In this document: positions 16,453-34,800 of the stretch, piece after piece
Numbering within the stretch: position 1 is the stretch's first letter
Layout: the number at the start of each line of letters is the position of its first letter
NCBI GenBank assembly: GCA_017503105.1
Contig: JAFVTS010000024.1
Coordinates: 1-39,361, forward strand
Direction: 5' to 3'
DNA: 39,361 nucleotides
DNA from: Clostridia bacterium
GTDB taxonomy: Bacteria > Bacillota > Clostridia > Oscillospirales > CAG-272
Made by a program: the position numbers and the translations under genes
Notes under the pieces: model-generated
What the model was told of the DNA's origin: nothing
Seen by the model: the letters and a program-made list of their open reading frames with translations, nothing else
The model's database searches: none

Positions 16453-17292
16453 ATGAAAAGGATTTTAGACCCAAAACAAATGCAAAAATTTGAGTTTCAT
16501 TTAAGAGACGAGGAAAGGAGTGCAGCGACGATTGAAAAGTATATGCGTGACGTCAGATTCTTCCTATCGTATATCAGGGAAAACGAAATAACCAAGCAAA
16601 CGGTATTGGATTATAAGAGTAAGCTTGGAGAGTCTTACGCTGTGTCAAGCGCCAATTCTATGATAGCCGCAATGAATTGCTTTTTACGTTTCTGCGGATG
16701 GCACGATCTTTGCGTCAAACAGTTTAAAATGCAAAGAGAGGTTTACTGTTCAGAGGAAAAAGAGCTGACCCGTGCAGAGTATGTCCGCTTGCTTGGTGCG
16801 GCAAATACGAAGCACAACGAGCGGCTTAATTTGATTATACAAACGATCTGCGGAACGGGAATCCGTGTGAGTGAGCTGCAATATATCACCGTGGAAGCCT
16901 TACACAGCGGTGAAGCTATCGTAAATTGCAAGGGCAAAAACAGAAGAGTGTTTATCGTTCCCGAGCTAAAGAAAAAACTGCTCCGTTACGTTAAGGAGCG
17001 GGGGATCGGTACGGGAACGGTATTCGTTACACGGAATGGCAAAGCAGTAAGCAGAAACAGCATTTGGAAGGATATGAAGGCTCTGTGCGAGCAGGCAAAC
17101 GTATCACCGAGCAAGGTCTTTCCTCACAATCTTCGACATCTCTTTGCCCGCACTTTTTACGGCATTGAAAAGGATATAGCCAAGCTCGCAGATATACTCG
17201 GACACGCAAGCATCAATACGACACGCATTTATATCGTAACGACGGGCGCAGAGCACAAGCGCAAGATGGAGCATATGCGGCTCATCATATAA
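16453..17292 (+). CDS. Tyrosine recombinase, candidate DNA invertase for the adjacent switch
   Basis: A 279-residue tyrosine recombinase of full family length. The N-terminal SAM-like DNA-binding domain covers about residues 10-85. The catalytic domain covers about 105-279. The active-site set is complete: R138 (GTGIRVSEL), K160/K162 region, H225-N-L-R228 (HNLRHLF), H251 (LGHASINTTR) and nucleophile Y260. No phage, transposon or excisionase genes are nearby, so it is an orphan. Its 3' end is 38 bases from the left of two perfect 23-bp inverted repeats flanking a promoter-bearing segment, the arrangement of recombinases that invert promoters. The ATG is preceded by AAGGAG. Assignment as the inverting enzyme is inference from position. 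Confidence 0.93.
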   Translation: MKRILDPKQMQKFEFHLRDEERSAATIEKYMRDVRFFLSYIRENEITKQTVLDYKSKLGESYAVSSANSMIAAMNCFLRFCGWHDLCVKQFKMQREVYCSEEKELTRAEYVRLLGAANTKHNERLNLIIQTICGTGIRVSELQYITVEALHSGEAIVNCKGKNRRVFIVPELKKKLLRYVKERGIGTGTVFVTRNGKAVSRNSIWKDMKALCEQANVSPSKVFPHNLRHLFARTFYGIEKDIAKLADILGHASINTTRIYIVTTGAEHKRKMEHMRLII

Positions 17293-17330
17293 AAGAAAAA
17301 ATCCCGATGCGAACACACCGAGACCGAAGA

Positions 17331-17353
17331 CAACATAACGAGAGTTATGTGAT
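17331..17353 (-). repeat. Left 23-bp inverted repeat (IR-L) of the putative invertible segment
   Basis: A 23-bp sequence identical in reverse complement to 17593-17615. Its core is ACATAAC, centre GAGA, GTTATGT. The 7-bp arms are palindromic and the 4-bp centre gives it direction, here opposite to the right copy. That layout favours inversion over excision if these are recombination sites. Confidence 0.9.
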
Positions 17354-17388
17354 ATTAGATATCCGATATTTTTTTCAGATACATAGGG

Positions 17389-17417
17389 ATTATACCATAA
17401 AACCGCCCCGAAATCAA
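17389..17417 (-). promoter_or_regulatory. Strong leftward promoter inside the putative invertible segment
   Basis: Minus strand TTGATT (17417-17412), 17-base spacer ending TATGG, TATAAT (17394-17389). The TGG before the -10 matches the promoters of the AraC-type and tRNA-Trp genes in this window. Transcription would start near 17382, cross IR-L and run antisense into the recombinase gene. No coding region is served in this orientation. Confidence 0.82.
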
Positions 17418-17481
17418 TAGGTTTAGCAAAATTTATAGGTTGGCAAGATAATTTTAGTAAATATTATCTAAAAATTTGCGT

Positions 17482-17539
17482 GACAAAAACACCTTTCGTG
17501 CATTTTTTTCAAAAAAACTACGGCGAAAGGTTTTTTGTC
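17482..17539. terminator. Bidirectional terminator inside the putative invertible segment
   Basis: Arms GACAAAAACACCTTTCG and CGAAAGGTTTTTTGTC, with an inner TTTTTTT/AAAAAAA stem. A-run on one side and T-run on the other allow termination both ways. It terminates recombinase readthrough now and would also sit behind the promoter after inversion. Confidence 0.8.
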
Positions 17540-17592
17540 GAGCTCTTTTTTGTTTGGGTTAAAGCAAATTTGGTAACAATTCCCGCTTTTTA

Positions 17593-17615
17593 ATCACATA
17601 ACTCTCGTTATGTTG
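17593..17615 (+). repeat. Right 23-bp inverted repeat (IR-R) of the putative invertible segment
   Basis: Perfect reverse complement of 17331-17353, with core ACATAACTCTCGTTATGT (17595-17612). Bases beyond the 23 do not match, so the identity is confined to a discrete site. Confidence 0.9.
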
Positions 17616-17627
17616 ATTATTAAAAGT

Positions 17628-17645
17628 ACATAACTCTCGTTATGT
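17628..17645 (+). repeat. Third copy of the 18-bp palindromic core
   Basis: ACATAACTCTCGTTATGT again, in the same direction as IR-R and offset from its core by 33 bp, close to three helical turns. It could be a spare recombination site or, with IR-R, a pair of operators for the downstream TetR-type regulator. Confidence 0.85.
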
Positions 17646-17796
17646 CGCTTCAGCAGTCCTTGTGAACGGGAAGTCGCCAACAAAAACAGAAGCCTACTCA
17701 GATAGGATTTTTTTTAGGGGGTCGGTGTAGCGTTCACTAATTGCCTTCAAAAAATATCAAAATCTCGGTTGCGGATGAAATGGAGGGGAGAACCGA
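17646..17796 (+). other. Untranslated leader of the TetR/SipW operon
   Basis: No gene and no convincing -35/-10 pair toward the operon. It contains a long-range inverted repeat GTGAACG (about 17662) / CGTTCAC (about 17731) and a short CCTA/TAGG stem followed by a run of eight T (about 17693-17716), which could form a weak attenuator. The ribosome site TGGAGGGGAG precedes ATG 17797. Confidence 0.5.
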
Positions 17797-18411
17797 ATGA
17801 GGTACGAAGCGGAAATAAAAGAACTTCTGATCGAAAATGCCATACATCTAATTGCCGAAGGCGGCTTCGAAAAAGCGACAACCAAGGAACTGACTCACAG
17901 TGGAGGAGAATTGCCCGATTTTAAGATGAACGAGGTCTATATCTACAGGTTCTTCAAAAGCAAGGAGAATTTGTATGAAGCGGCTTTCGTTCGTTTGGAT
18001 ACGGAGTTGTACTACGCATTCAAGCGCGGTGTGGAGATTATCGGCGGATTTGATAACGACGTAAAAGAAAAGCTGGGGAATTTTTTCTCTATGGCTTGGC
18101 AGTTCGTATTGGGTAACGAAGAGCGTTGCCGTTGCTATGTCAGATATTACTATTCGATCTATTTCAAGGGACACTCCCGCGAGGCTCACAAACAGCTCTT
18201 TGAGGGAATCGTTCGTGAAATGACGCCGATCTTCAAGGACGAAGCGGACGTCGAAGCTATATTACACAGCGTTTTTACCGCGATATTTGATTTTGCCATT
18301 CGTGTGTATAACTGCGAGCTTGAAGACAGTGATATCAACAGACCCCACATCTTCAACGTGCTGTATTGTATGATGGCTACTTATCTTAAGGAGTCGGCAA
18401 AAGCGTCGTGA
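17797..18411 (+). CDS. TetR/AcrR-family transcriptional regulator
   Basis: A 204-residue regulator. The N-terminal helix-turn-helix (about 8-58) fits the TetR family: ELLIENAIHLIAEGGFEKATTKEL, with MNEVYIYRFFKSKENLYEAAF in place of the usual VSKGTLYHYFxSKEeL. It has a longer insertion between helices than most. The rest is an all-helical ligand/dimer domain rich in aromatic residues (CRCYVRYYYSIYFKG). It is the first gene of the SipW operon and probably autoregulates it. The palindromic ACATAAC-N4-GTTATGT sites at 17595 and 17628 are candidate operators. The effector is unknown. GGAGGGGAG precedes ATG 17797. Confidence 0.9.
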   Translation: MRYEAEIKELLIENAIHLIAEGGFEKATTKELTHSGGELPDFKMNEVYIYRFFKSKENLYEAAFVRLDTELYYAFKRGVEIIGGFDNDVKEKLGNFFSMAWQFVLGNEERCRCYVRYYYSIYFKGHSREAHKQLFEGIVREMTPIFKDEADVEAILHSVFTAIFDFAIRVYNCELEDSDINRPHIFNVLYCMMATYLKESAKAS

Positions 18412-18428: not shown

Positions 18429-18611
18429 TTGAAAAAAGAGAAGAAAAACGCAAAAACAACAAAATCGCAAGAGGACGGTATGTCTTGGCTCGTAGCCAAT
18501 ATAAACACCTGTATTTCCTGCGGAAGAGAAATCCCCGAGGGGAACCTTGTATGTATGGAATGCGAGGACGGCAGGACGCAAAAGAAATGTACGATATGCA
18601 AGAACCGATAG
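18429..18611 (+). CDS. Zinc-ribbon miniprotein, TTG start
   Basis: A 60-residue protein with three CxxC knuckles: C28-x2-C31 (CISCGREIPEG), C42-x2-C45 (CMEC) and C54-x2-C57 (CTIC). The first two make a classic zinc ribbon; the third may add a second half-site. The N-terminus is very basic. It starts with TTG at 18429, supported by TAGGAG about 8 bases ahead, 17 bases after the TetR stop. The family role is unknown. Position second in the operon, just after the regulator, suggests a regulatory or assembly role, but that is inference. The frame at 18485-18670 overlapping it looks non-coding. Confidence 0.75.
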   Translation: MKKEKKNAKTTKSQEDGMSWLVANINTCISCGREIPEGNLVCMECEDGRTQKKCTICKNR

Positions 18612-18717: not shown

Positions 18718-19212
18718 ATGCCTAAAAGCAATTTAATGCGAATCATCTTGGTAGTCGCAAGCGTGCTTATCGTTTTCGGAGTCGTGCTCACGGCTTGGTC
18801 TTGGGCTACGAGGGACGAAAGAAACGTCATCGAGGTTCGCCTCCGTGACAGAGAAACGCAGACTGTAAAATTTGAAAACCTATGCTTGCTCCCCGGCGAG
18901 GAGTGTGAGTACACTTTAAAGCTGGAGCCCGACGGAATAGAGCAGTGCGATCTTAAAATAGATTTTATTGAAACAAAGGAGCGCACGCTGAAAAATTTCG
19001 CTTACGTAAGGATCGAAGCCGACGGCACCGTGATTTTTGACGATTTAATGGCAAGAGCCTTTGACGGTGAACCTATTATCCTGCCCGTTGACTTTGATTC
19101 CGGCAAGAACGCCGAGCTCACCGTTACTTATTATCTCCCTCTTGACGTGGGCAACGAAGCCCAAAGCGCCGAGGCAATTTTTGAATTGCAGCTAACGGCA
19201 TCAAATGAATGA
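18718..19212 (+). CDS. Membrane-anchored beta-sandwich protein of the SipW cluster
   Basis: A 164-residue protein with one N-terminal hydrophobic segment (about 7-26) and an extracellular beta-rich domain. The domain contains LLPGEECEYTLKLEP and VTYYLPLDVGNEAQSAEA, strand patterns like those of TasA/CalY-type substrates. After the membrane segment it reads AWSWATRDE, a degraded version of the A-[WL]-F-T-[DS] motif seen in six other proteins of this operon, so it may stay uncleaved as an anchor. AAGGAG precedes ATG 18718. It lies directly before the first SipW gene. A role as membrane base or accessory of the fibre, comparable in position to TapA, is inference. Confidence 0.65.
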   Translation: MPKSNLMRIILVVASVLIVFGVVLTAWSWATRDERNVIEVRLRDRETQTVKFENLCLLPGEECEYTLKLEPDGIEQCDLKIDFIETKERTLKNFAYVRIEADGTVIFDDLMARAFDGEPIILPVDFDSGKNAELTVTYYLPLDVGNEAQSAEAIFELQLTASNE

Positions 19213-19220
19213 GGTGACTT

Positions 19221-20027
19221 ATGAACAAGGCTAAGGTGAAAAAAATAATAAATATAGCGGCAAACGTGTTGCTTTACATATTCCTTGCCGTTTGTATTTT
19301 TTCAGTAATCGTAACCCTCGTTTCAAGAAATAATTCCGACGGCGCGACGGAGATATTCGGTTATCAGATGAGGGTCGTTACCTCTGATTCGATGGCTGAA
19401 TGTGAGCATACCGACGTTTCCGCATACGAGATCGGCGATATTCCGATTCGTTCTATGGTCTTTATCGAAACGGTTCCCGAGGACCCTGCCGAGGCACAGG
19501 ATTGGTACGGCGAGCTTAAGGTCGGTGACGTCCTTACCTTCCGTTACGTCTACACGTCGCAGGTAACTATCACGCACCGTATCACTTCGATAACGGAGAA
19601 GGAAACGGGCGGGTACGTTATTAAGCTTGCGGGAGATAACAGAAATTCCGAATCCTCGCAGCTCGATCAGATCATAGATACGTCCTTGACGAATTCTCCG
19701 AATTACGTGATCGGAAAGGTTACGGCGCAGGCGTATATATTCGGTGTTATTATGAGCTTCCTTATGACACCTCTCGGAATGGTCATTGCCATCATCGTTC
19801 CGTGCTTGCTCATTATTCTTTTGGAAGTTTTCAAGATATTCAGCGTGTTCAACGCAGAGAAGAAGGAGCTTCGCAAAAAGGAAAACGAGGAGAAGGAAAG
19901 GGAGCTTGAGGAGCTTCGCCGTAAACTCGCGGAGCTTGAGGATAATAAAGGAAACGAAAAAGTTTCCGATACGGTCGGAGAGAATTCCGCCGACAAAGCA
20001 GACAACAGGGAGAATGATGAAAAATGA
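19221..20027 (+). CDS. sipW: SipW-type signal peptidase I (first copy)
   Basis: A 268-residue ER-type (archaeal/eukaryotic-like) signal peptidase I. It has an N-terminal membrane helix (about 10-33), catalytic S57 in VTSDSM, H119 in VTITHRITSI instead of the bacterial Lys, and a candidate Asp in LAGDNRNSESS (D139). A second membrane helix lies around 180-205, followed by a highly charged coiled-coil tail (about 210-268). SipW enzymes remove the special signal peptides of TasA-like fibre proteins. The tail is longer than in Bacillus SipW (about 190 residues). It overlaps the next gene by 4 bases (ATGA). GAGGTG precedes ATG 19221. Confidence 0.93.
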   Translation: MNKAKVKKIINIAANVLLYIFLAVCIFSVIVTLVSRNNSDGATEIFGYQMRVVTSDSMAECEHTDVSAYEIGDIPIRSMVFIETVPEDPAEAQDWYGELKVGDVLTFRYVYTSQVTITHRITSITEKETGGYVIKLAGDNRNSESSQLDQIIDTSLTNSPNYVIGKVTAQAYIFGVIMSFLMTPLGMVIAIIVPCLLIILLEVFKIFSVFNAEKKELRKKENEEKERELEELRRKLAELEDNKGNEKVSDTVGENSADKADNRENDEK

Positions 20028-20620: not shown

Positions 20621-21247
20621 ATAAAAAGTACGAACAGAAAAAGAGCTTTGCTTATTTCAAGTGCGGTTATTCTGATATGTATGTCGGTAATAGTCGGTAT
20701 GACCTTTGCGCTCTTTACTGATACGAACAGTATCAGGAACCATCTTCAGGCCGGAACGCTTGATGCTACCTTGAAGAGAACGTATCTTGAGTACACGGTG
20801 CTCGATGACAGTGGTAAGCTTGAAAAAATTACGAATAGCGACGCCGTTGATTTCACCGGGTCCGTTGGTGAGAACGTGTTTGGAATCGAGTCGGAAGATA
20901 TAAGAATCGTCCCCGGCAGCTATTTCAAAGCGCAAATGCAGATCGAAAACGGCGGTAACGTCGCTTTTACTTACAACGTCGGAATCAAGCTTGTCGGTGA
21001 AAGTAACGCGCTCGTGGACCAGCTTCAAGTGACGGTCACTCACCCCGACGGTCACAAGACGACCAAGCTTTTGGGCGAGATGGTCAACGGTTTTCAGATC
21101 AACGTAGATAAAATGCTAAGCGGCGCACAGCCTCACAGCTTTACTATTGAGATCAGCTTCATAAACGACACGACCGTAAATAACGCCGCTCAGACAAAGC
21201 TCGCGGTATTCGACCTCGTAGTGACTGCCGTTCAGGCGACTGACTAA
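20621..21247 (+). CDS. SipW-dependent TasA/camelysin-like secreted protein, apparent ATA start
   Basis: A 208-residue substrate of the SipW system. The signal peptide has a basic start (MKSTNRKRA), a hydrophobic core and TFALFTD; cleavage is expected after A30. The mature part is a beta-sandwich with PGSYFKAQMQIENGGNVAFTY, typical of TasA-like fibre subunits. The only in-frame start that keeps the basic region is ATA at 20621, 9 bases after AAAGGAGG. The first ordinary alternative, TTG at 20648, would delete the charged region and is too far from the ribosome site. So either ATA initiates or an ATG has mutated. A non-standard start may limit its level. Confidence 0.82.
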   Translation: MKSTNRKRALLISSAVILICMSVIVGMTFALFTDTNSIRNHLQAGTLDATLKRTYLEYTVLDDSGKLEKITNSDAVDFTGSVGENVFGIESEDIRIVPGSYFKAQMQIENGGNVAFTYNVGIKLVGESNALVDQLQVTVTHPDGHKTTKLLGEMVNGFQINVDKMLSGAQPHSFTIEISFINDTTVNNAAQTKLAVFDLVVTAVQATD

Positions 21248-21348: not shown

Positions 21349-21984
21349 ATGAAGAAAAAGGTATTATTGTCTTCTCTTGCGACTATCGCTCTTTGCCTGA
21401 GCCTTATCGCAGGCTCGACCTTCGCTTTGTTCACTTCCAACACCGAGATGAACGTAGCCGTTAGTTCTGCAACGGTAAAGCTCGTTGCTACCGTTGATGC
21501 AGCAAACGCAAAGCTTTATTCTTATTCCGCGGCAACGCCCGATACTCCCGAGTATATGGGTGACGGTGTTAAAACCTTCACGAACGGAGGCGAGGCGATC
21601 TTTAACGGCAATGCTATTACCATTAATCGTATGACTCCCGGTGATAAGATCGAGTTTGACATCAATATGGAAAACAGCAGCGACGTTACTATTCAGTATC
21701 GCGTAGCGTGGACTACCGAGAGCGATCTTGCAGACGTTCTCGTCGTTTCCGCTGTCGAAAAGGATAACGCAAGCAGAACGCTTAACGATTGGGCTGCTTG
21801 GGCTACTGACGAAATAGCGGAAAAGACCGTTACCGTTACTCTCGAGCTTCCCGCTTGGGTTGGAAATGAGTATCAGACCAAATCCGCAACGATCTACGTA
21901 AGCGTTGAAGCGGTTCAGGGTAATGCTATTCATAACAATACCCTCGTAGAGCCCCAGAATCCCGGCGCACCCGTTAATCCTTAA
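21349..21984 (+). CDS. SipW-dependent TasA-like fibre subunit candidate
   Basis: A 211-residue secreted protein. The signal peptide MKKKVLLSSLATIALCLSL ends in STFALFTS, with cleavage expected after A26. The mature part is a beta-sandwich with MTPGDKIEFDINMENSSDV and a last strand ATIYVSVEAVQG, the pattern of TasA/CalY proteins. It ends in a short Pro-rich tail (PQNPGAPVNP). AAAGGAGA precedes ATG 21349, the strongest ribosome site among the small substrates, and a stable hairpin sits just upstream. That makes it my best guess for the main subunit, although abundance cannot be read from sequence. Confidence 0.85.
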   Translation: MKKKVLLSSLATIALCLSLIAGSTFALFTSNTEMNVAVSSATVKLVATVDAANAKLYSYSAATPDTPEYMGDGVKTFTNGGEAIFNGNAITINRMTPGDKIEFDINMENSSDVTIQYRVAWTTESDLADVLVVSAVEKDNASRTLNDWAAWATDEIAEKTVTVTLELPAWVGNEYQTKSATIYVSVEAVQGNAIHNNTLVEPQNPGAPVNP

Positions 21985-22019
21985 TCGAAATGAAAAAAAT
22001 ACGGCAAGGGGAGGTAATG

Positions 22020-22592
22020 ATGTTCCGTTATAAATCGAATAAACAGGCGTTGGTTGTAGCGGTACTCGTTATTCTGCTTTGCCTCGCGTGCCTTTCGGGG
22101 GCAACGCTCGCCTTGTTTACAAGTGATATAAACGATGGAAAGATCGGTATTGTCACAACTACGGGCGACGTTGAAGTCGATATCGTAGACGCTGACGACG
22201 TGTCGAGATCTCTTGTGGGAGATACGCTTGATTTCAAGGACGCGTCAGTAACGTTCGAACCCGGAGCAACGTTTTGTACAAAAGGTTTTAAAGTCATAAA
22301 CAAAGGCAACGTTAATATCAGATTCCGCGTATCCGTCAGCGCTGATGAAGAGATGGATATGAGGGGATTTAACGATGCATTTACGGTTTGGATCACGACC
22401 GATCCGAGCGGTGACGGAGATACGCAATTGCTCACCGAGTTTACGGGAACTATACTGCCCGGCGCTTTCACTGAGGATACGTATTATATATGTATTAAAA
22501 TGAAAGAAAGCGCAGGAAATGAGTTCAAAGGGCAAACGTATAACGGCATCGGGATCACCGTATACGCGATACAGGGCAACGTTGAAGTTTAA
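22020..22592 (+). CDS. SipW-dependent TasA-like secreted protein
   Basis: A 190-residue substrate. The signal peptide begins MFRYKSNKQALVV and ends ATLALFTSD, with cleavage expected after A31. The mature beta-sandwich has FEPGATFCTKGFKVINKGNVNIRF and ends ITVYAIQGNVEV, closely paralleling the preceding subunit. I place the start at ATG 22020, 5 bases after GGGGAGG. ATG 22017 is adjacent, and the frame opens further to 21990 without a ribosome site. One mature Cys is present. It is followed after 14 bases by the second SipW gene. Confidence 0.83.
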   Translation: MFRYKSNKQALVVAVLVILLCLACLSGATLALFTSDINDGKIGIVTTTGDVEVDIVDADDVSRSLVGDTLDFKDASVTFEPGATFCTKGFKVINKGNVNIRFRVSVSADEEMDMRGFNDAFTVWITTDPSGDGDTQLLTEFTGTILPGAFTEDTYYICIKMKESAGNEFKGQTYNGIGITVYAIQGNVEV

Positions 22593-22606: not shown

Positions 22607-23380
22607 ATGAATAATACAGCAAAAAAAATACTGGATATATCGTTAAAGGTCGCAACAAGACTTTTGCTTGTCTTTACCGTCCTTATGATGATTTTTACCA
22701 TATTCACGGTCACAACCGTTGGCAAGAACGATCGCAGCATTTTTGGTTTTAAGTTTTATATCGTAAAGACGGACTCAATGAGTCCCTCGGATAAAAACGC
22801 TGATATGGACGTGCATTTCAGCGCGGGCGATATCGTGATAATCAAAAACGTTGACGACCCTGCAAAAATGCAAGCGGGCGATGTCATTTCGTTCATATCG
22901 ACCAACACGGACAGCTATGGCGAAACGGTAACGCATATGATCCGTGAGGTGAAAAAAGACGATGGCGGAAACGTCGTCGGCTACGTTACCTTCGGTACGA
23001 ATACGGGAACCGACGACGAAGCTATCGTCGAGCCGCCGTACATACTCGGCAAGTATTCGGCAAAGCTTCCGAATATCGGAACGTTCTTCGCGTTTATGAA
23101 GACGACCCCCGGTTATATCGTTTGTATTCTCGTGCCTTTCCTTCTTTTGATTTTGTATAACGGAATGAACGTTATTCGTCTTTTCCGCAAATATAAAAAA
23201 GAGCAGACTGAAATAATGAAAGCCGAAAGAGAAGAGATAGAGGCAGAGAAAAAACAAAACGAGGAGATCCTTCGCGAACTCCAGGCACTGAAAGAACAGC
23301 TGGCAAGACAAAGCGGCGGCGAGGAGCAAACGCACCCTGCCGCGGGCGACGGGGAGAAAGCGAACGACGATCCCGACTGA
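22607..23380 (+). CDS. sipW: SipW-type signal peptidase I (second copy)
   Basis: A 257-residue ER-type signal peptidase. Two N-terminal hydrophobic stretches merge at about 12-38. Catalytic S57 lies in VKTDSMSP and H110 in ETVTHMIREV; the third motif is FGTNTGTDDE (Asp at 136/137). This differs from the GDN of the first copy and hints at different substrate preference. A second membrane helix lies at about 165-185, then a long charged coiled coil (about 195-240) and an acidic tail. Two divergent SipW enzymes in one operon with six substrates suggests division of labour. AAGGAG lies about 10 bases before ATG 22607. Confidence 0.92.
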   Translation: MNNTAKKILDISLKVATRLLLVFTVLMMIFTIFTVTTVGKNDRSIFGFKFYIVKTDSMSPSDKNADMDVHFSAGDIVIIKNVDDPAKMQAGDVISFISTNTDSYGETVTHMIREVKKDDGGNVVGYVTFGTNTGTDDEAIVEPPYILGKYSAKLPNIGTFFAFMKTTPGYIVCILVPFLLLILYNGMNVIRLFRKYKKEQTEIMKAEREEIEAEKKQNEEILRELQALKEQLARQSGGEEQTHPAAGDGEKANDDPD

Positions 23381-23531: not shown

Positions 23532-25154
23532 ATGAAAAACGCAAAGACCACTAAGAGAGCGTTGATAAGCAGCGTTATTTCGCTTGTTATTTGCTTTACT
23601 ATGCTTCTCGGCTCTACTTTTGCTTGGTTCACCGACAGCGCAATAAGCTCCGGAAACAAGATCGTTACCGGTAACCTTGACGTTGAGCTTTGGCACCATA
23701 CTGAGAGCGGTTCTACCAATATTACCGCTGAGACCGACCCTGTTTTCTCGGGTGACATCGTTTGGGAACCCGGCAAGACGGAGGTAGCATATTTTTCCAT
23801 CAAGAACAACGGTTCTCTTGACCTCAAGTACAAGGTTGCCGTTGCCGTAACCGAAATTTCCGATCACGACCTCACAGAGGTTATGTATTACGCAATCACT
23901 CCCGATGCTAAGATCGGCACCAACGAGGTGACCGCTTGGGTCGGCAACGACAGCGACGATGCTAAGAGGCTCAATGCGGGCGTTGGTATCACCGAGACCG
24001 ATGCAAATGACGTTACGCTTCTTACGGGTGAGGAACATTTCTTCGCACTCTCTATCCATATGGATGAGGCAGCTACCAACAAGTATATGGGCGAGTCCAT
24101 TACCTTTGACATAAAGGTACTTGCAGGTCAGCTCGCAAGCGAGGAAGACAGCTTCGGCAAGGATTACGATAAGTTCGCAGGTTATCCCGGCGCAGGCTTT
24201 GCACCCGCACTCGCTGACGGACAGGTAGCTGTTGAGATTCCCGTCGTTGGCGATGGTGGCGATAAGGTCGGCTCCGTTATGATCCCCGCAGGTGCGGCAG
24301 AGGATGAAACCGTAGGCTTCACCGCGAAGATATCCAAGAGCACCTACAAGGGTAACTTCACCGTTGCGGCAGGTATGGAGACGGTTGTATACGATGTAAG
24401 CGTTACCAATCTGAAGGCTGACAACACCGCTCCCGTAAAGGCACAGCTTCGCATCGCGGCAGGTCTTGATCCCGATACCGTTAAGCTCTATCACTACGAT
24501 ACCGAGATCGATTGCGTTTACAATCCTTCTACCGGCTACGTAACCTTTGAAACGACGAGCTTCTCTCCGTTCACCGTCGTATTTGACGCTGACTCCGAGT
24601 ATGTTCCCGCGCCCGCTCTTCCCGAAAACGTACCCACCGCAAACGTAACCTACTACCCCGATTGGGTTGGTGCAGACATCGAGTGGGGCAACTTCGGCGG
24701 CTTCGCTCCTACTGAAGGTAAGGAGGCTGTTATTGACGCGGCGTTTGTATTCGAGTGCCCTGCAGAGGTCGATGAGGCATACAAGAATTGGCTCTGCGAC
24801 TTCTACGTATCGCTCGATCAGGATCTTGGCGAGAACGAGATCTTCCTCGCAGGTCAGTACGGCGATTACCTCGTAGGCTTCCATAACGGCGAGCTTACCC
24901 TTGAGGCAGGCACCGAGCTTCCTCTGCTTGGCGCAGCTATTTCGGGCAATATCGATGGCATCACCAACTGGACGTATGCTGACGTTGAGTCGTTCGTCGG
25001 CACGTTCATCTGCGGTGTCGGTAACGTTGAAGATTCTCTCACGGGAGCAACCTTTACCGTTGCACTTCGCTTGATCAACCCCGATAATACCTCTGAGTAT
25101 TATGATGTAAACGTAGTAACCTACACCTTTGGCGGTAGCTACGAAATCAAGTAA
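23532..25154 (+). CDS. SipW-dependent secreted protein, TasA-like plus two beta domains
   Basis: A 540-residue protein. The signal peptide MKNAKTTKRALISSVISLV ends STFAWFTDS, with cleavage expected after A31. Residues about 32-200 are a TasA/camelysin-like beta-sandwich (WEPGKTEVAYFSIKNNGSLDLKY). Residues about 235-360 form a second domain (VKLYHYDTEIDCVYNPSTGYV, FSPFTVVFD) that is also found in the 1923-aa protein. The C-terminal 165 residues are a further beta domain of unknown type. No sortase or membrane anchor is visible. The sequence is acidic and Ala/Gly/Thr-rich, usual for extracellular Clostridial proteins. AAAGGAG precedes ATG 23532. It probably co-assembles with the fibre subunits. 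Confidence 0.85.
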   Translation: MKNAKTTKRALISSVISLVICFTMLLGSTFAWFTDSAISSGNKIVTGNLDVELWHHTESGSTNITAETDPVFSGDIVWEPGKTEVAYFSIKNNGSLDLKYKVAVAVTEISDHDLTEVMYYAITPDAKIGTNEVTAWVGNDSDDAKRLNAGVGITETDANDVTLLTGEEHFFALSIHMDEAATNKYMGESITFDIKVLAGQLASEEDSFGKDYDKFAGYPGAGFAPALADGQVAVEIPVVGDGGDKVGSVMIPAGAAEDETVGFTAKISKSTYKGNFTVAAGMETVVYDVSVTNLKADNTAPVKAQLRIAAGLDPDTVKLYHYDTEIDCVYNPSTGYVTFETTSFSPFTVVFDADSEYVPAPALPENVPTANVTYYPDWVGADIEWGNFGGFAPTEGKEAVIDAAFVFECPAEVDEAYKNWLCDFYVSLDQDLGENEIFLAGQYGDYLVGFHNGELTLEAGTELPLLGAAISGNIDGITNWTYADVESFVGTFICGVGNVEDSLTGATFTVALRLINPDNTSEYYDVNVVTYTFGGSYEIK

Positions 25155-25273: not shown

Positions 25274-28200
25274 ATGAAGAACACGAAGAAGTCACTTGTA
25301 TCAAGAGTGATAGCGCTCGTTTTATGCTTTTCTATGCTTCTCGGATCGTCTTACGCGTGGTTTACCGATTCGGCGATCAGCGAAGGAAACGTAATAAAGA
25401 GCGGTAATTTGGATGTCGAGATGTATTGGTCCGACACGTTTTTGGCAGCTGATTCCGCAGAGTGGAAGAACGCTGACGGAGTTCCCGTATTTACGTATGA
25501 TAATTGGGAGCCCGGCTATACGGAGGTCAAATACGTAAAAGTAAAGAACGCGGGCAATCTTTCGCTCAGATGGCGCTTGTCCATTGAGGCGGAGGGCTTG
25601 GTCACGGACCTTGCCGACGTTATTGACGTTTATTACATAAATCCCGTGTCGTCTTCGGTAAATACTCTTGAAGACAGGAGCAGCTCGGGAGTTCTTTCCG
25701 AAGTTCTTGGTGGCCATAAAGCTACCGAAGGAGTTCTTCTTCCCGAGGGCGAGAGCAGCCCTTTGTACACTTCGGGTGAGGCAATACTCGCCGTCGCTTT
25801 CCATATGCAGGAGGACGCGGGTAACGCTTATCAGGGAATGTCCATAGGCGACGGCTTTAAGCTCAAGCTTATTGCGACGCAGTTCAATTATGAATCCGAC
25901 GTGTTCGGTCCCGATTACGATAAGGACTCGCAGTGGCCGAACGAGGAGTTCACGGGGAATTCCGCGTCGGTGAGCGTCGTTCCAACAGCTGATTCCAAGG
26001 TCTCGTCTGCGGTTAGTATGACGAGCAGCGACGGCGCTATTACCGCGGACGTTCCCGCGGGTGTTAAGCTTCAAAGCGAAACGAGCAAGCTTACCTTAAA
26101 GGTGGGTGACGTTTCCGACAGCCGCGCGAATATCACCCTCAGCGCAACCGAAGCGGCTCTTTCCATAGACGTTCATATTGACGGTGTTGCCGAGGATAAC
26201 GACGTCGTGATGACGATCGGAATCAAAGAGCTTCTGCCCGTCGGACTTAATATGGGTAACTATCGCTTCTACCACGTCGAGGACGGCGTAACCGTGGAAA
26301 TGATACTTCTTGCCGACGGCGCGACCCCCGCTCATAATAACTATGAGTACGACCCCGCAACGGGTGACGTCGTTCTTTACCTTAAGTCGTTCTCCGAGGT
26401 CGCCCTCGTTGCAGATACGGAGAATGCTTGGCAGGGAACCGTCGCGTCTGCTTTCGCGGGAGGCAAGGGAACGGAAGATGAGCCCTACCTTATCGCAAAC
26501 GCCGATCAGCTCGTATATTTCGGCGACTTGATTTCTAACGAAAATGAAACCTATGGCAACAAGTATTATAAGCTGCTCGCCGATATCAACCTTGGCGGAG
26601 AAGAGAATGCCAATAAGGGAAATATCTTCTACCCAATAGGATATACCGCGGTAGGCGGTGAGCTCGCAGCGCTTGGCCTTGATGACGCACCTGAGTTCCT
26701 TTATTTTGAAGAAGATCCCGATTACGCAAGAGGAGTCGTGAGCGCAGCTTCGGAAGAAGCGGCAAAGTGGTACACCTACGGCGGCTCCTTCAAGGGCGTG
26801 TTTGACGGAAACGGAAACAGGATAAGAAATATTTATCAGAACACGTGGCTGATGAAGGGAAATTACAGCGGCAATTATTGGAATGCCGCTATGGGTATCT
26901 TCGGCTACGTTAACGGCGGAACCGTAAAGAACCTTACCGTTGATAACTTCTCCTCGGACGGCGAGTTCACCCCCACGGGCGTTATTGCCGCGTACGCTAC
27001 GAATTCCACCTTTGAAAATATCGCGATCATAAACTGCAATCCCAGAGTTTACAACACAGGTAACGGTGGTATCGTAGGTATAGGCGGAAATTCGGACGAC
27101 CCCGATTCTTACAAGCTGACGTTTACGAATATCACGATCGACAATACCAATAAGATCTCGGCGCTTTGGGGCTCTTGGGACGTTGCTTGCGGCGGTCTTG
27201 TCGGTATGTTCCGCGGCGCAGGTCACGTTTATATGACGAACTGCCACGTAGGTGCGCAGATAGACGTTTATAACGACGTTTGCGGTAACTATCAGTATTA
27301 TTGGTACAGATACTCGGGAATGATGATCGGTACTAATAAAAATATGATCACCGACGCAAACGGTTATACCGTTCCCGAAACCGATAAGTTCCACGCGGAA
27401 GATTGCACCGTTCATTTCGGTGATTGGAACGACTATTACTACTGCGAGCTCGTCGCGAATTCTCTTGCGTCCTACACTCACGACCATCAGTTTAGCCGTC
27501 TTGAACAGATCCAAAGCGTTTCCGAGATTCAGGATGCAAACGGCAATTGGAACAGAACGGGCAACTTTATCTTGATGAACGGCAAGACTCCTACCGACAC
27601 TTGTTATCATATCGTCAAGAATGCCGAAGGCGCCCTTGTTCAGCATAATCACGCTGACGCGGGCGAGGAAGTCGTTGGCGGAAACACCGTTCTTAAAGAG
27701 AATAACCAGCGCGTTTATCTCCCCTTCAATCAGCTCTTTACGGGCTACGGCTGGGGCGTAAAGCATATCCCTGTTTATAACGGCGAGGACTACGCGTTTG
27801 AAGGCATTACTATCCTCGATAGAACCGAGGCTGATTCCGAGGATAAGTTCGAAGCTATCATAAACGGCAAGGGCTTTGAAACAGAAACGACGCTCACTCT
27901 TGGCGAGATATTCAGAGCCCTTGACGGCAAGCAGATAAATCTTCAGACCTTGAAGGTCTTCGTTTCTCCCGTAGGTGAGGGAAGCACTGTAAGTGCCGTC
28001 TATACGCCTAATGCGGAAGATTGGACTTTGGGCACTCTTACGTTCAGCGGAATCGGTGCGGCAAAGATCACTATTACCGATTACACCTATTGTAAGGAAG
28101 CTGTGACCTCCGTTACGATCTTCGACCATCCCGCAAAGGATAAGTTCGTAGCCAACGGAAATCTCACCTTCGAGCACGTCCTTGAGGGCGATACGGTCAA

Positions 28201-31045
28201 TAAGACCCTCGGTGACATTTTCTTCGCTGTTGATGGCGCTGTGATCGACAGTGAGAACGTGATAGTTACCGTAGATTCGGCAAACGGCGCCGAGTGCGTA
28301 TTCGTTCAGGACCTTGAAAATTGGGCTGAATCAACTCTCGCCTTCACGGGCGTAGGTGCTGTTACCGTCACCGTTACCGATCAGAATTACTGTAAAGTAG
28401 CGACCGCGACAGTTGCGGTTGCAAATCCCGAGGAAACAGACGTTATTACTCTGAAATTCCCTAACGTAAATAAATATCTTTACCGCGTGGGTAACAAAAC
28501 CGAGATAAAACTTGATACTTTGTTTGCTGCAATTCCTGAATATGCAACCGCGACGGTAGTATTTGAAACCGTTTCAGGAAACGTATCGGGAGCTTACAAT
28601 AACGGGAACATAAGCTTCACGGGCACGGGTGTTGTAAATATCACCGTTGACACCAACGCCTTCACCGTGGCAAAGACCTTGACCGTTGAGGTAATAAACG
28701 CTACTAACATCACCTCCGCTACCGGAACGACTGCAGGCGGTGATATGGTCCTTCTTTGCGATGTTAATACTACCACATACGTAAACTATTGGAACTGCAC
28801 TCTCTACGGAAACGGATTTACCTATTCTCTCAATGGTGCTCCCACAGATTATAACTCCAAGCAGGGACACGGAATTCTTATTACTCAAAACGCAGTACTT
28901 GATAATCTCGTAATTATCGGTGATGTTTATGATAGCTTTGGCGCATATAAAGACAATCCTAATTATAATGCCGCTATCGATGTGCAAGGGCCTACGATAA
29001 TCCAAAACTGCTATATTGCTAACTGTGCAACTCCTGTTAAAGCGAGAAACAACGTAACTATCACGAATTCCACCTTGTACGGCGGAACGGTAGCTAATTT
29101 GATCATTTTGTCCGGAACGGTAACTTTGGAGGACGTAACTACTGTTAATTACAGCGACGGCAGAGAGCTTGTCGGTATGGGTATCGTTATTCACTCCGAT
29201 GTAGCAGAAGGCGCAAAACTTGTTATCAACGGAACATTGACGCAGTATAATTTCATTAGCGAAAGCGATGAGCCTAACGATGACACCGCAAAGATTCTTT
29301 ATGATGCAATGTTTGACGAATCTTGTAGTAAATATCATTACGGAAACGCTCCTGACCGTTATGTAAATACCGGTATTATCTCAATGTCCCCCAACTTTAC
29401 CAAGGGTAATATAGAGGATAATGCAAGTACGGGTTATGAAGGATTAGATGTTACGATAAATAAAATACCCGGATTCGTATATACGCAGCCTAACATGGTA
29501 GGTTCTGTTAATAACGATTATGATTACGAAAATGATGCTCATAAAGCGTCAGTTCAAGGCGATTATCTCCCGACTCCCGAATTTGATCTTGGCGATCAAG
29601 CTGTATCAGGAGAGGATACGTATATTAAGGGCGATATCAACGGTGTAGAAATTCGTTATATGCAAGGCGAAACACCTTTGACTCTTGATATCACCAAACT
29701 TATGACGGTATACAAGTATGGCGGAGTATATTATGCAGTAAGTGCGATATGCAAAGATGCAAACGGCAATATCGTGAATACGTTTGCTAACACCGGAAGC
29801 TATACGCTTGTATTTACGGTTGAGGATAACGAGTTTTATAATCCTGACGGAACTAAGTCGGATAAATCTGTAACGAGAACCTATGAAGTTCCAATAAGTG
29901 TTATAGTTGCAGAGCCTACGATTAAAGATGCTGTCATCACGATAAAAAATGCAGCGCAAAGCGGTTCTTATTCAGGCTTGACTGACAAAACCATATCATT
30001 CAATCCTTTGAATGCTATTACTATTACAGATGCGGAAGGAACTGTAAATTTAACTACCAATATTGCATCGACAAATATTGTATACGCATCTTCCAGCAGT
30101 GCTTATGCGGGAGAAACGACGATTACTGTAACTTATAGCGACGGACGTGTGCTTGAAATCAAGCTTGGAAAGCCTACGCTTAATTCCCCCGGATCCTCTA
30201 AAGCTATTACTTATGCCAACGACGGTACGATAAAATCTGCCGCAGCGGTAGCAAGTAAATCTGCCACGGGTGGAACGTGGACCGTAACCTCTTACAGCTT
30301 CAAGGGTGCTAACGGAAAGACTGTTACTAATAACACCGTTGTTACCTTCACATTCCCCGACAAGAGCTGCGTTACAGGTGACACGCTTGTAACACTCGCT
30401 GACGGAACTCAGAAGCGAATAGACGAAGTGACGTATGCTGATCAGCTTCTTGTATGGAACTTCTTCGAAGGAAAATATGATGTAGTTCCGTCTGCAATTA
30501 TCTTCTATCACGGTGATGCAGAGTACGATATTCTCAATCTCGAGTTTGAGGACGGTACGGTAGTAAAGGTCATTAACAATCACGGATTCTATTGCGTGGA
30601 AGAAAACAAATTCGTATTTATAAGCGAAGCGAATGTGCAGAATTATATAGGATATAGTTTTGTGAAAGTAAATGGCGATGCTTATTCGTCTGTTAAGCTT
30701 GTTGATTACGAAATAACGCAAGAGTATACAGGTTGCTATTCTATTCAGACAGCAATGCATAACAACTTTATAACGGAGGGTATGTTCTCGCTTACTATTC
30801 CTCATTACGATGGATGGTTTGATTACTTTGAAATCGGAGAAGGTATGAAGTATGACGGAGCAAAGATGCAAGCGGATATAGATACTTATGGTCTTTATGA
30901 TTATGAAGAATTTGCCGAGTATGTAACTTACGAGCAATTCGTTGCATTTAACGGACCGTATCTCAAGGTTTTGGTTGGAAAAGGAATAGTTACTTACGAT
31001 CAAATCATTGAGCTTATAAGCCTTTACGTAAACCCTAACGAATAA
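25274..31045 (+). CDS. Giant SipW-dependent surface protein with C-terminal Hint (hedgehog/intein) domain
   Basis: A 1923-residue protein. SipW-type signal ends SSYAWFTDS (cleavage after A28). Residues about 29-215 are TasA-like. About 235-380 match a domain of the 540-aa neighbour. About 395-660 are a GLUG-like beta-helix. About 860-1140 hold three tandem Ig-like repeats of about 95 residues. About 1145-1330 are a second beta-helix, then Ig-like domains. Residues about 1699-1835 form a Hint domain: C1699-V-T-G-D-T at a Ser-Cys junction, the block-B-like NNHGF, and block-F-like GCYSIQTAMHNNFITEG. An 88-residue acidic tail with Tyr/Phe follows. Unlike splicing inteins, it lacks the final His-Asn plus Cys/Ser/Thr, so N-side cleavage or ester transfer is more likely than splicing. 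DNA after about 28.7 kb is clearly more AT-rich. Confidence 0.87.
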   Translation: MKNTKKSLVSRVIALVLCFSMLLGSSYAWFTDSAISEGNVIKSGNLDVEMYWSDTFLAADSAEWKNADGVPVFTYDNWEPGYTEVKYVKVKNAGNLSLRWRLSIEAEGLVTDLADVIDVYYINPVSSSVNTLEDRSSSGVLSEVLGGHKATEGVLLPEGESSPLYTSGEAILAVAFHMQEDAGNAYQGMSIGDGFKLKLIATQFNYESDVFGPDYDKDSQWPNEEFTGNSASVSVVPTADSKVSSAVSMTSSDGAITADVPAGVKLQSETSKLTLKVGDVSDSRANITLSATEAALSIDVHIDGVAEDNDVVMTIGIKELLPVGLNMGNYRFYHVEDGVTVEMILLADGATPAHNNYEYDPATGDVVLYLKSFSEVALVADTENAWQGTVASAFAGGKGTEDEPYLIANADQLVYFGDLISNENETYGNKYYKLLADINLGGEENANKGNIFYPIGYTAVGGELAALGLDDAPEFLYFEEDPDYARGVVSAASEEAAKWYTYGGSFKGVFDGNGNRIRNIYQNTWLMKGNYSGNYWNAAMGIFGYVNGGTVKNLTVDNFSSDGEFTPTGVIAAYATNSTFENIAIINCNPRVYNTGNGGIVGIGGNSDDPDSYKLTFTNITIDNTNKISALWGSWDVACGGLVGMFRGAGHVYMTNCHVGAQIDVYNDVCGNYQYYWYRYSGMMIGTNKNMITDANGYTVPETDKFHAEDCTVHFGDWNDYYYCELVANSLASYTHDHQFSRLEQIQSVSEIQDANGNWNRTGNFILMNGKTPTDTCYHIVKNAEGALVQHNHADAGEEVVGGNTVLKENNQRVYLPFNQLFTGYGWGVKHIPVYNGEDYAFEGITILDRTEADSEDKFEAIINGKGFETETTLTLGEIFRALDGKQINLQTLKVFVSPVGEGSTVSAVYTPNAEDWTLGTLTFSGIGAAKITITDYTYCKEAVTSVTIFDHPAKDKFVANGNLTFEHVLEGDTVNKTLGDIFFAVDGAVIDSENVIVTVDSANGAECVFVQDLENWAESTLAFTGVGAVTVTVTDQNYCKVATATVAVANPEETDVITLKFPNVNKYLYRVGNKTEIKLDTLFAAIPEYATATVVFETVSGNVSGAYNNGNISFTGTGVVNITVDTNAFTVAKTLTVEVINATNITSATGTTAGGDMVLLCDVNTTTYVNYWNCTLYGNGFTYSLNGAPTDYNSKQGHGILITQNAVLDNLVIIGDVYDSFGAYKDNPNYNAAIDVQGPTIIQNCYIANCATPVKARNNVTITNSTLYGGTVANLIILSGTVTLEDVTTVNYSDGRELVGMGIVIHSDVAEGAKLVINGTLTQYNFISESDEPNDDTAKILYDAMFDESCSKYHYGNAPDRYVNTGIISMSPNFTKGNIEDNASTGYEGLDVTINKIPGFVYTQPNMVGSVNNDYDYENDAHKASVQGDYLPTPEFDLGDQAVSGEDTYIKGDINGVEIRYMQGETPLTLDITKLMTVYKYGGVYYAVSAICKDANGNIVNTFANTGSYTLVFTVEDNEFYNPDGTKSDKSVTRTYEVPISVIVAEPTIKDAVITIKNAAQSGSYSGLTDKTISFNPLNAITITDAEGTVNLTTNIASTNIVYASSSSAYAGETTITVTYSDGRVLEIKLGKPTLNSPGSSKAITYANDGTIKSAAAVASKSATGGTWTVTSYSFKGANGKTVTNNTVVTFTFPDKSCVTGDTLVTLADGTQKRIDEVTYADQLLVWNFFEGKYDVVPSAIIFYHGDAEYDILNLEFEDGTVVKVINNHGFYCVEENKFVFISEANVQNYIGYSFVKVNGDAYSSVKLVDYEITQEYTGCYSIQTAMHNNFITEGMFSLTIPHYDGWFDYFEIGEGMKYDGAKMQADIDTYGLYDYEEFAEYVTYEQFVAFNGPYLKVLVGKGIVTYDQIIELISLYVNPNE

Positions 31046-31075: not shown

Positions 31076-31564
31076 TTGGAAGAACAGAATAAAAAAGAAG
31101 AAGTCTTGACCGACAAAGCGTTTTCTCGGATGCTTCTTACGTCGGTTCTCGGAATACTGTTTTGCATAGTTTGTCTTTGCTCGACCACGTTTGCTTGGTT
31201 CACCGACAGCGCACCGAGTGCTCAGAACGAGATCAATGTTGCTGACGAGTGCCTCCTTTCCGTCACCGTTACGGAAAGCGGTGAAGAGCTTGAAAATATC
31301 GAAAGCGGCGTCTTGCTCGAGGCAGGGAAGGAATATACGGTAAAGCTTTCGCTCCCCTCGGGCTCCGCTTCGGGCTACTGTATGATAGTAGCGGGTGACA
31401 ACACCTATTACAGCGATTATATAGCCCGTCACAGCGAAACCGAGCCCCAAACCGTCGTTTTCACCTTGACGGTGGGAGAGGACAGGACGGTCCTCTTCAA
31501 GCCGCACTGGGGCATTTATTCCAAAGATGCCGACGTTGTCGACGGCAAATTACTTATTCCGTAA
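31076..31564 (+). CDS. Small SipW-dependent secreted protein, TTG start
   Basis: A 162-residue substrate and the last gene of the operon. It starts at TTG 31076, 7 bases after AAGGAGG; no ATG is better placed. The n-region is unusually long and charged (MEEQNKKEEVLTDKAF), then a hydrophobic core and TTFAWFTDS, with cleavage expected after A40. The mature part is a short beta domain (LLEAGKEYTVKLSLPSG, PQTVVFTLTVGEDRTVLF) about two thirds of normal TasA-like length. It might cap or modulate the fibre, but that is inference. A strong terminator follows at once. Confidence 0.82.
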   Translation: MEEQNKKEEVLTDKAFSRMLLTSVLGILFCIVCLCSTTFAWFTDSAPSAQNEINVADECLLSVTVTESGEELENIESGVLLEAGKEYTVKLSLPSGSASGYCMIVAGDNTYYSDYIARHSETEPQTVVFTLTVGEDRTVLFKPHWGIYSKDADVVDGKLLIP

Positions 31565-31822: not shown

Positions 31823-34800
31823 TCAATCGTTTCTGTACGGTTTGTTTTTCAGAACCCAATCTACCAATTGCTGAAGTCCGTTCATATCCGCTTCGGAATT
31901 GAATATTTCAACGAAATTCGTTCCGTACGTTTCCGTCGTATTCTTGCTTATAAATCTATCTGCGTCAAACTCTGCTCTGATCGAAGTATCAAGGCAAAAA
32001 TCGTAAGGAAGCGTTGTTGCGCTATCACCGGTGAGAAGGCTATATATGAGCATTGACTGAATATAACCCGTCAGCATTGTGCCATGCTTTCCGTCTTTTA
32101 CAATGAAGGAGTTTATGCTGTAGTCTTGGGTGGCATTCGGTACGGAATACTCACCTCTTAAAATGCCGTCCATCAATCCGCCCCAGTCCGCAATGAGAAT
32201 CCCTTGGTCCTCAAAACCTGCAAGGAGATCCTTCTGGTAACAGTAATCTGTGCTGTAAGTGCTGTTGTAACCGTATGCGCATGCGGTACCCATCACTATA
32301 AATTTCACATTGGGATTTGCTTCCCTGAAGAAATCCATAACCTTAATTATCGTTTTATCAAAATTCGATTCCGCACCGGGTGATATTACGACGTAATCAT
32401 AGTAGCGGTCCTCTAAATAGCTTTTATGATCGTATGAGCAGTGACTACAATTGTCCGAAAAGATGCTTCCAACACCGTGTCCGCCGAAGGTCCAGTTAGT
32501 AACTTCGACCTCGACTCCCATCTTCTTACAAAGCTGATAGAAATACCCCTGATCGTTCTGTCTTGCCGCTTGTGTCTTGGCACTGGATTCCAGGACGGTT
32601 TTTCCCCAATATATGTATGAGTTGCCGATAAATATGATTTTTTTCCCGTTTAACCACATGTTCGTTTCTCCGCTTGTGATATCAAATGGCTCTTCGATAG
32701 CATTTCTTACGCTCTTGATTGCGATAGATCTCGCGGTCTCGTCAACTGCAACATAAGCGTCACTTATCGGGGGCACCCATTCGAGTCGCGAGATGTCAAT
32801 ACCCGTAAGAGCTGCGAAATACGTAAGTCCTGCGATGTATCTTCCGACGCCCTTGTCAAGATGAAGACCGTCACAGGTGAGGTCGTTTCCGAGCGAGGAG
32901 GTTCTCGCGTTCTGAATAGCCGTACCCGTGGGAATAACGAGGTCAATGAGGGGGAGAACCGAAGACTGTACGGTTGACACGATGCCGTTATACATATTGA
33001 TCTGAGATACCTTGCTTGACATTTTTTCGGATATGTACTCCTCTTGGTAAGCCCAAGTCATATGCCAAGCGATCTTTGCGTTTGCGTTGCAGCCCTCTAC
33101 TATTTCAATGAGTTCGGAGAGGTTTTCGTGTTTTTCGGGAAGGTTAGTATACTTGCTCGCTTGCTGAAGGGTGATGAAATCCCAATTATTCTCTGATATA
33201 TACCCAAGAGCAGCAGCTCCGTCCACTTTAGAAACCGAAGTCTTTTCTGTGTTGTCAAAGTGATAGTAGGTATAAGTAGCAACATTTCCTTCGTCATCTA
33301 CCGGTGGATTGCCAGTGAGCACGCTAATGTGCTTATCGATGTCGCATCCTCCGATGTAAAGGTTGCCGATCTCGATCTCTACACCAAGACCGTTTGCGAT
33401 GTATGCAAGCCATTCGCAGGCATCAACAGAGAAGCTGTTGCCAACGCAGAGGATCTTCAATACGCCGTCATCATCCCAATTTTTCTTCGGCACAGTATTC
33501 TCCTCCATCATATCTTTATATTCCTTCGCCTTTTCGCCGAGAAGATATAGCGAACGCGCAAGATCCTTAAAGCTATCGGGAATCGCTGTACTGTCGGTGC
33601 TCGTAATGACGAGGTGAAGCAAGGAATAAACACTTAACGTCGCCGTCGTTTGGTTTTCTCCGTCTTTGAAAACAACAGTGCGCTCCTTGTCAAACGTTAA
33701 CGGTGTAGGCTCGGTCAAGATAACGTAGTATTCACCGGGAATTTCGGAATTATAAATGGGCAAGGGGGTCTCCGTCGCCGTTGCGTCTTCACTCACACTC
33801 TCGTAGGCTTTTACGTTATTCGAACCTTTAAAGTAGATCTTCATCTCGGTGTGTGAGGTGAGCACGAGCTTTCCCTCGGTTACTGTGACCGCATTTCCCG
33901 TAATCACGGGCGCGTAAGCGGCAAGATCTTCCGCTCCAACTGAATCTATAGCATTTTTGTCATTATCGGACAATTTCGCGTTTGGAAGTATATCCGCCAA
34001 ATCTTCGGGATTGCCGTTCATACCGGCGAAGTAAATTTGCGCGTATGAGCCATAATTTTTCATTGCCTTTACGAGGTCGCTGACAGCGGTTTTTTGCGGT
34101 GTTGCAAGAAGCTCGTCTAAATAATCGTTGATTGTCGTTTTGTAAGGATATGTGTTTGTATCGCCCACCGCTTCATAAGTGACGGTTATTTCTCTCGTCA
34201 TATCTATAGAACGAAGCGGGAGCGTGATCTTATACAAGCCCTTGTTTTCACCCTCCGTCTCGGGTGAAAGCTCGGAAATAGCAAATTCCGCCTTCTTGCT
34301 GCCGCCTGCTGCCGTAGTATCAAGAACGAGCTTAGCGTCGCCGTAATCGGCGGCTTCTTTATCAAGCTTTACATACGCGTTGAAGGCGATCGAATCTCCG
34401 ATAGAGGCGCTCCTTGAAACTACCAAGACGTCTGAAGCGATTACGTAACCGTTACACATTTCGCAGCGAATCGTTGGACGGAGTTCAGCCTTACAAGTCG
34501 TGCACACACCGTTCTTAACAGTGTGGGCACCGTTCGCATCCTTGTGAGCGCACTCAAGAAGACTACCGCGGTAAATTCTGAGATCGTCCATATCGAAGCC
34601 GCGTTTATTCTGACCTGCACGGAAATATCCTAACGTAAAGTCGGAAACGGTGCTGATCGTATCGGTATGCGTGATACCGTTTTCATCTGTGTAGGCATAA
34701 TCCCAAGTTCCGACCTGATCGTCCGCTACAGCTTGTATGCCCGTTTTTACGAGCTTTCCGTTTAAGAGCACGTGATAAGTGTTATCGTCCGCATTGCTTC

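Follow-up and report, generated by a model that had tools for sequence, protein, structure and literature searches.

Invertible promoters with neighboring tyrosine recombinases are a known kind of switch, and in the fim system of E. coli a promoter-bearing invertible element and a tyrosine recombinase provide ON/OFF control of an adhesin. The recombinase RecV of C. difficile, in turn, is encoded away from its switch. To our knowledge, neither the tapA-sipW-tasA operon of B. subtilis nor the archaeal bundling pili have an invertible promoter. Bimodal expression of the sipW-bsaA operon of C. perfringens requires a two-component system and PilA2, and the terms “recombinase” and “phase variation” do not occur in the main text on that operon (PMC7395162). 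The hCom2 study describes inverton group 139 (invertase group 35), for which 32 of 33 members come from the class Clostridia. Coordinates are printed for two members, which are 255 and 257 bp long, and a tyrosine-type recombinase/integrase is encoded no more than 5 kb away. Inversion ratios change as the cultures are passaged, one member behaves differently on mucin carriers and in the supernatant, and neither SipW nor TasA is mentioned in the main text (PMC11892184). Within the titles and abstract beginnings of the open-licence literature, we found no SipW/TasA-type operon under inversion or phase variation; a preliminary description of the present locus likewise knew of no phase-variable SipW/TasA fiber system.

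The window analyzed here is a stretch of 39,361 nucleotides from a Clostridia bacterium (contig JAFVTS010000024.1) in which a recombinase gene and a short promoter-bearing cassette precede a tetR/SipW operon. The window cassette is very probably a phase-variation switch, an invertible promoter that is OFF as assembled. The sequence comparison behind this reading covers the recombination sites, the matching of their spacers, the occurrence of both orientations with conserved flanks, and the recurrence of a promoter and a leftward terminator; that the window promoter is active, that the adjoining recombinase performs the inversion, and that inversion is ongoing within a population, we infer.

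As in other invertons, paired inverted repeats surround the promoter. Repeat and site-pattern searches placed the unstranded repeats at 17331..17353 (holding site A, 17333–17350) and 17593..17615 (holding site B, 17596–17613); they are 23 nt long and 100% complementary, with 239 nt separating the arms. Each arm forms the palindrome ACATAAC-NNNN-GTTATGT, which fits the core site expected of a tyrosine recombinase. The exact palindrome occurs three times in the 2.6-Mb genome to which the window belongs, every time at the switch, while the reversed-pattern control returned none; with up to two mismatches, four sites were found in the window against 0.17 by chance. The third exact match, the likewise unstranded site C (17628..17645), has the spacer of site B and is the probable outer border of a 313-bp invertible unit spanning 17333–17645. 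Since the 309-bp unit of the related locus L070 carries its extra site at the end opposite to that of the window, the outer sites A and C are probably the ones used. Extra sites with the same spacer were present in 7 of 65 paired cassettes (nine extra sites were found, two of them with unrelated spacers).

The recombinase gene (16453..17292, forward strand) is an open frame for 279 amino acids, likely the invertase, with a Phage_integrase match at E 1.7e-25 and, as its nearest NCBIfam model, a XerA-type entry scoring under the cut-off. Catalytic and N-terminal domains are both present; among 14 homologues, two of them shortened by contig ends, R138, K162, H225 and R228 are invariant and H251 and Y260 nearly so, which we take to be the catalytic R-K-H-R-H-Y residues.

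Scanning, relatives and shuffles identified a sigma-70-type promoter, TTGATT-17-TATAAT with a TG preceding the −10 element, at 17389..17417 on the reverse strand and thus directed away from the operon. A predicted bidirectional terminator lies in the segment at 17484..17537 (unstranded), with T-runs on both strands. The region 17484–17550 folds on both strands at −14.9 and −15.6 kcal/mol, which is modest when taken alone (z −1.99 and −1.85; 7 and 9 of 200 shuffles equally good), and the stem is conserved, as judged by eye, in an alignment of six segments. Stronger is the leftward intrinsic terminator at the 3′ end of the recombinase gene (17300..17325, reverse strand), found by scan and folding, with a folding energy of −12.6 kcal/mol and a z of −4.55, matched by none of 200 shuffles. 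Of the 65 cassettes, 44 have a leftward terminator of the same kind, compared with an average of 2.0 for each of five mononucleotide-shuffle sets. For the segment hairpins of the 65 cassettes, a scan limited to loops of 3–9 nt, which long-loop hairpins escape, returned 26 that face right (6.4 in shuffles) and 11 that face left (5.0 in shuffles). Consensus scans of the window itself gave 11 promoter-like sites against 5.7 in shuffles, and 3 terminator-like sites against 3.4, the latter not beyond chance; because these local scans are weak, the case rests on comparison with relatives. A rightward promoter-like site at 17440–17467 (TTGGCA-16-TATTAT) was set aside: it lies ahead of the hairpin of the segment, and visual inspection of the alignment with L070 and L072 does not show it to be conserved.

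The perfect 23-bp repeats, the intact tyrosine recombinase gene, the left-pointing promoter and the bidirectional terminator had all been proposed in the preliminary description, and each was recovered here, the hairpin exceeding shuffles only modestly. Its 285-bp segment is indeed flanked by the repeats, but the third site and the leftward terminator had been missed and the unit, measured between outer sites, is probably 313 bp.

A mechanism can be proposed from this arrangement. The recombinase would act on palindromic 18-bp sites, ACATAA-N6-TTATGT, and would invert a segment of 281 bp (A–B) or, more likely, 313 bp (A–C). In the OFF orientation, the promoter would drive transcription leftward, and a dedicated terminator immediately following the recombinase gene would end the transcript ahead of an antisense run over the recombinase; the segment hairpin would shield the operon from recombinase read-through. 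Inversion to ON would point the promoter at tetR and the SipW/TasA-type fiber operon, where the terminator-like leader, together with a putative TetR operator, may exert a second control following inversion.

This leader gives rise to the most serious alternative. At 17693..17715 (forward strand), a weak, attenuator-like hairpin and T-tract was chosen by eye and folded, and visual inspection shows such an element in each of five tetR-type leaders (window, G035, L070, L072 and L074) at −2.5 to −10.8 kcal/mol. Downstream at 17726..17739 (forward strand) lies TGTAGYGTTYACTA, a possible TetR operator picked out by eye from its place ahead of tetR in relatives; like motifs stand upstream of tetR in the window, G035, L070 and L074, a palindromic variant in L072, and a reversed near-copy in L077. 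The motif has one exact copy in the window; allowing one mismatch, the whole genome holds two copies against two of the reversed control, no excess, so its support is its position in relatives and not its rarity. It is possible that the leader hairpin is an attenuator and the TGTAGYGTTYACTA-like motif a TetR operator, in which case inversion may be needed yet not sufficient. One could go further and suppose that the segment inverts but that TetR and leader attenuation mainly set operon expression, with orientation only permitting or priming it. The recurrence of both elements in these leaders favors this reading, and the T-tract of the leader could stop transcripts that start at the ON promoter; against it, the hairpin is weak in the window (−2.7 kcal/mol) and in G035 (L070, L072 and L074 have stronger ones), and a motif that is not rare at one mismatch may serve tetR autoregulation only. 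We consider it rather unlikely.

The operon, all on the forward strand, runs for ~13.8 kb from the tetR start at 17797 to the end of the last SipW-type gene at 31564. The TetR-family regulator (17797..18411) is a weak match to PF00440 (E 1.9e-5; 24.8 bits, cut-off 24). It is followed by a small zinc-ribbon-like open reading frame of 60 aa with a TTG start (18429..18611) and a membrane-anchored protein of 164 aa (18718..19212), both without Pfam match, the latter with homologues in L070, L046 and L048. The SipW-like signal peptidases 1 (19221..20027; NF046067 E 2.2e-19) and 2 (22607..23380; E 3.4e-22) score 69.8 and 79 bits on NF046067, below its cut-off of 190, and 35.2 and 54.7 on TIGR02228, where only the second passes the cut-off of 51.85. 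Between the first peptidase and the fiber genes lies the gene of a membrane protein whose C-terminal domain resembles ribosomal L15 (20024..20551; PF00828 E 1.3e-14), which is kept in L070 and L048.

The operon also encodes six candidate SipW-dependent products. These are secreted proteins of 199 aa (20648..21247; Peptidase_M73, N-terminal match only) and 211 aa (21349..21984; N-terminal match to the TasA model), a pilin-like protein of 200 aa with a predicted beta-sandwich (21990..22592), a surface protein of 540 aa identified by profile scan and homologues (23532..25154), a giant surface protein of 1923 aa without Pfam match (25274..31045), and a small protein of 162 aa at the operon end without Pfam or NCBIfam match (31076..31564). 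The 211-aa protein reaches 25.8 bits against a TasA cut-off of 450, over residues 1–56 only, which does not make it a TasA family member, and the other fiber candidates scanned had no match to the TasA model. For the 200-aa subunit, the predicted structure is a beta-sandwich (pLDDT 76.6, pTM 0.60) whose structural comparison was ambiguous among beta-sandwiches; a profile built with related subunits matched the archaeal bundling protein AbpX at E 9e-6 and TasA weakly at E 0.034. On these model-based grounds, the subunit is called SipW-dependent and pilin-like rather than TasA. The ~13.8-kb tetR/SipW operon lies where the preliminary description placed it. The operon product is presumably a fiber. 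For the 540-aa protein, structure prediction gave a poor model (pLDDT 67.9, pTM 0.36), which was set aside. Residues 1699–1773 of the 1923-aa protein resemble a Hint/intein N-terminal stretch (TIGR01445 E 8.4e-4; 20.3 bits, cut-off 24.5), which might allow self-processing of a surface fiber protein. At the operon end, 31823–36850 on the opposite strand encodes a 1675-aa protein with a DUF4886 domain.

We then compared the cassette across relatives. Among the 69 genomes of the genus set, own genome included, the strict site pattern was present in 7 (reversed control, 0 of 69) and recombinase relatives of at least 50% identity in 14 (own genome included; G050 by a 41-residue piece). At least 587 recombinase relatives exist in public genomes, and the best 80 of these, mostly from Clostridia metagenome-assembled genomes (MAGs) and many from ruminant or rabbit gut by record title, were taken as named loci; with 15 genus loci, the window included, they make up the 95 loci studied. 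L135 and L143 (chance repeats) and L139 (failing the arms criterion) were left out before counting, and the genus loci L049, L052, L053, L061 and L064 are not among the 95, being without a recombinase, cut before the segment, or a 33% relative.

A search using only the arms ACATAA-N6-TTATGT, with the middle six bases free, found paired left and right sites in 65 of the 95 loci. Another 18 have a left site only, 16 of them with a contig end within 377 bp, and 12 have no left site, 5 of them at a contig end within 343 bp; with 30 loci unpaired, some cassettes are evidently cut, decayed or of differing motif. Strand exchange by tyrosine recombinases needs conserved arms and a spacer whose one constraint is to match its partner. 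The spacers are exact reverse complements in all 65 pairs, represent 46 distinct sequences, and agree in 1.2% of comparisons among different loci; the highest count in 10,000 permutations was 8 of 65. A second cassette of the own genome (L058; contig 14, 9739–10848), with its own recombinase (51%), another spacer and an OFF promoter, stands before cohesin/dockerin/LRR genes. L057, L062 and L063 are near-identical cassettes of one genome with a shared spacer, each preceding the gene of a large secreted protein; having this spacer in common could permit recombination from one cassette to another.

Orientation was assigned by a position-limited caller requiring a promoter that reads outward near one site; it replaced a looser promoter caller, dropped, which gave different labels for several loci (e.g., L074, L086 and L094). 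A promoter was called in 56 of 65 segments, 42 OFF and 14 ON, leaving 9 uncalled, where the OFF labels presume an operon without any other promoter. Twenty sets of dinucleotide shuffles gave 8.55 calls on average and 14 at most. Alignment of the segments, which makes no use of the promoter rule, yielded 72 of 2080 pairs with a clear orientation difference (25 or more); both promoters were called in 67 of these, and 66 of the 67, which are not independent pairs, agree with the alignment, L050/L062 being the lone exception. Mapped onto the recombinase tree, orientation changed at least 11 times.

Compared with the window, the segment is inverted in L070 (sheep colon; recombinase 89% identical), scoring 199 inverted and 62 in the same orientation, and in L072 (158 and 64); in both, the recombinase 3′ flank and tetR are in place and the promoter is aimed at tetR. 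The L072 tetR, around 11290–11920, is read in two frames (ORFs of 71 and 167 aa), a frameshift or sequencing error. L048 has a promoter called as ON, yet is not clearly inverted relative to the window (same 74, inverted 63), and is clearly inverted relative to L046 by segment alignment. In G007, listed with 6% contamination, two of three near-identical cassettes are OFF and one is ON. Sister species, and also paralogues within one genome, thus differ in orientation while their flanks stay unchanged. The preliminary description had suggested looking for both orientations among relatives, with a single orientation counting against a switch. Both are present, and the L070 and L072 segments lend support to its invertible ON/OFF reading, the details of which are amended by the weak terminator-like leader before tetR.

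These comparisons bear on whether the recombinase could instead be a Xer-type or mobile-element integrase remnant, with the repeats as old attachment sites at which recombination has been lost. XerA/XerD models do score best for the recombinase, all below their cut-offs, the targets vary widely, and 12 of the 95 loci have no recognizable left site. A remnant is hard to reconcile with spacers that match within every pair yet differ across loci, with opposite orientations in sister species, or with the retention of catalytic residues; moreover, a Pfam scan of 16 window proteins detected no mobile-element gene besides the recombinase. We regard this explanation as highly improbable. Still more remote is an assembly artifact, in which an arbitrary choice by the assembler fixes the orientation of each contig: the loci are mostly MAGs and contigs often end at the segment, but such a choice requires both forms in the reads, which is inversion itself, and two named isolates also carry paired sites, namely Holdemania sp. 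Marseille-P2844, which is OFF, and Clostridium transplantifaecale, for which no orientation was called. Of the 80 named loci, 18 are on contigs that stop no more than 400 bp downstream of the recombinase and one is on a contig that starts no more than 400 bp upstream, an excess that fits, if indirectly, mixed orientations in the sampled populations.

The genes behind the cassette vary. Of 57 paired loci with 1.5 kb or more of readable sequence, 23 have a SipW homologue in the downstream DNA or, within 7 kb, a protein with a SipW-type signal, and in the window's own recombinase clade (11 rows, SH-aLRT 97) SipW-type genes lie behind all 8 readable loci. Across the recombinase tree, the SipW label is only weakly clustered: it changes 17 times, where shuffled labels average 20.1 and 19 of 500 shuffles need no more changes. 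Pfam scans of 32 of 34 other targets returned LRR/BspA, cohesin, dockerin, collagen, Band-7 and helicase domains. Band-7/SPFH, found in 3 of the 32, is not an obvious surface-fiber target. By eye, the cassettes of L080, L086, L097, L098 and L146 precede genes with similar N-termini. Homologues of tetR stand behind the switch at only five paired loci (window, L070, L072, L074 and L077), from which tetR appears to be an added layer. Homologous SipW operons without sites are present in the window's genus, and cassette and operon are therefore separable, the switch not being essential to the operon; G037, for example, has a counterpart of the 540-aa protein (68% identity) on a 13.5-kb contig with no site. 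In G035 (L049, 19630 to end), a site and tetR (79%) are present with no SipW-type gene flagged within 17 kb behind; the SipW gene of this genome sits on another contig. The isolate Holdemania sp. Marseille-P2844 (L133, 10001–15116) has the same layout before a SipW gene and a BsaA-family gene (TIGR04090 44.1 bits, below the cut-off of 60) and is a possible cultured test case.

Taken together, a broader model can be put forward tentatively, with somewhat less than even confidence: a portable, self-contained phase-variation module of gut Firmicutes, consisting of a recombinase gene, an opposing terminator and a promoter segment of ~190–390 bp. Shared site arms and mostly private spacers would let modules in one genome flip independently, and the module would stand before many unrelated operons, among them SipW/TasA-type fiber operons that also exist without it. 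If the switch operates as proposed, surface-fiber production in mostly uncultured gut Clostridia would be a heritable ON/OFF trait, a recognizable recombinase family would be tied to its site and target operons, and the timing of fiber production in gut Clostridia would become a testable question; with at least 587 relatives, metagenome reads that already exist could reveal the orientation at many loci.

Several described systems share parts of this design. Like the RecV flagellar switch of C. difficile (PMC7446863), the window has a recombinase that would invert a short segment upstream of a Clostridia surface operon; the window recombinase differs in adjoining its own segment. With the UpaE-type switch of E. 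coli (PMC6083910), it shares a promoter-bearing invertible element, a tyrosine recombinase and ON/OFF control of an adhesin. The fim and UpaE switches serve chaperone-usher pili or an autotransporter, without SipW secretion. Its SipW-like peptidases and candidate beta-sandwich fiber subunits have parallels in tapA-sipW-tasA of B. subtilis and the archaeal bundling pili (PMC9674648), to whose subunits those of the window are only distantly related. The sipW-bsaA operon of C. perfringens (PMC7395162) is likewise a SipW operon for an extracellular filament and is known to be bimodal in a population. Finally, inverton group 139 of the hCom2 study (PMC11892184) agrees with the window switch in class, size and neighboring gene, the three features compared, and the window switch possibly belongs to this Clostridia inverton group.
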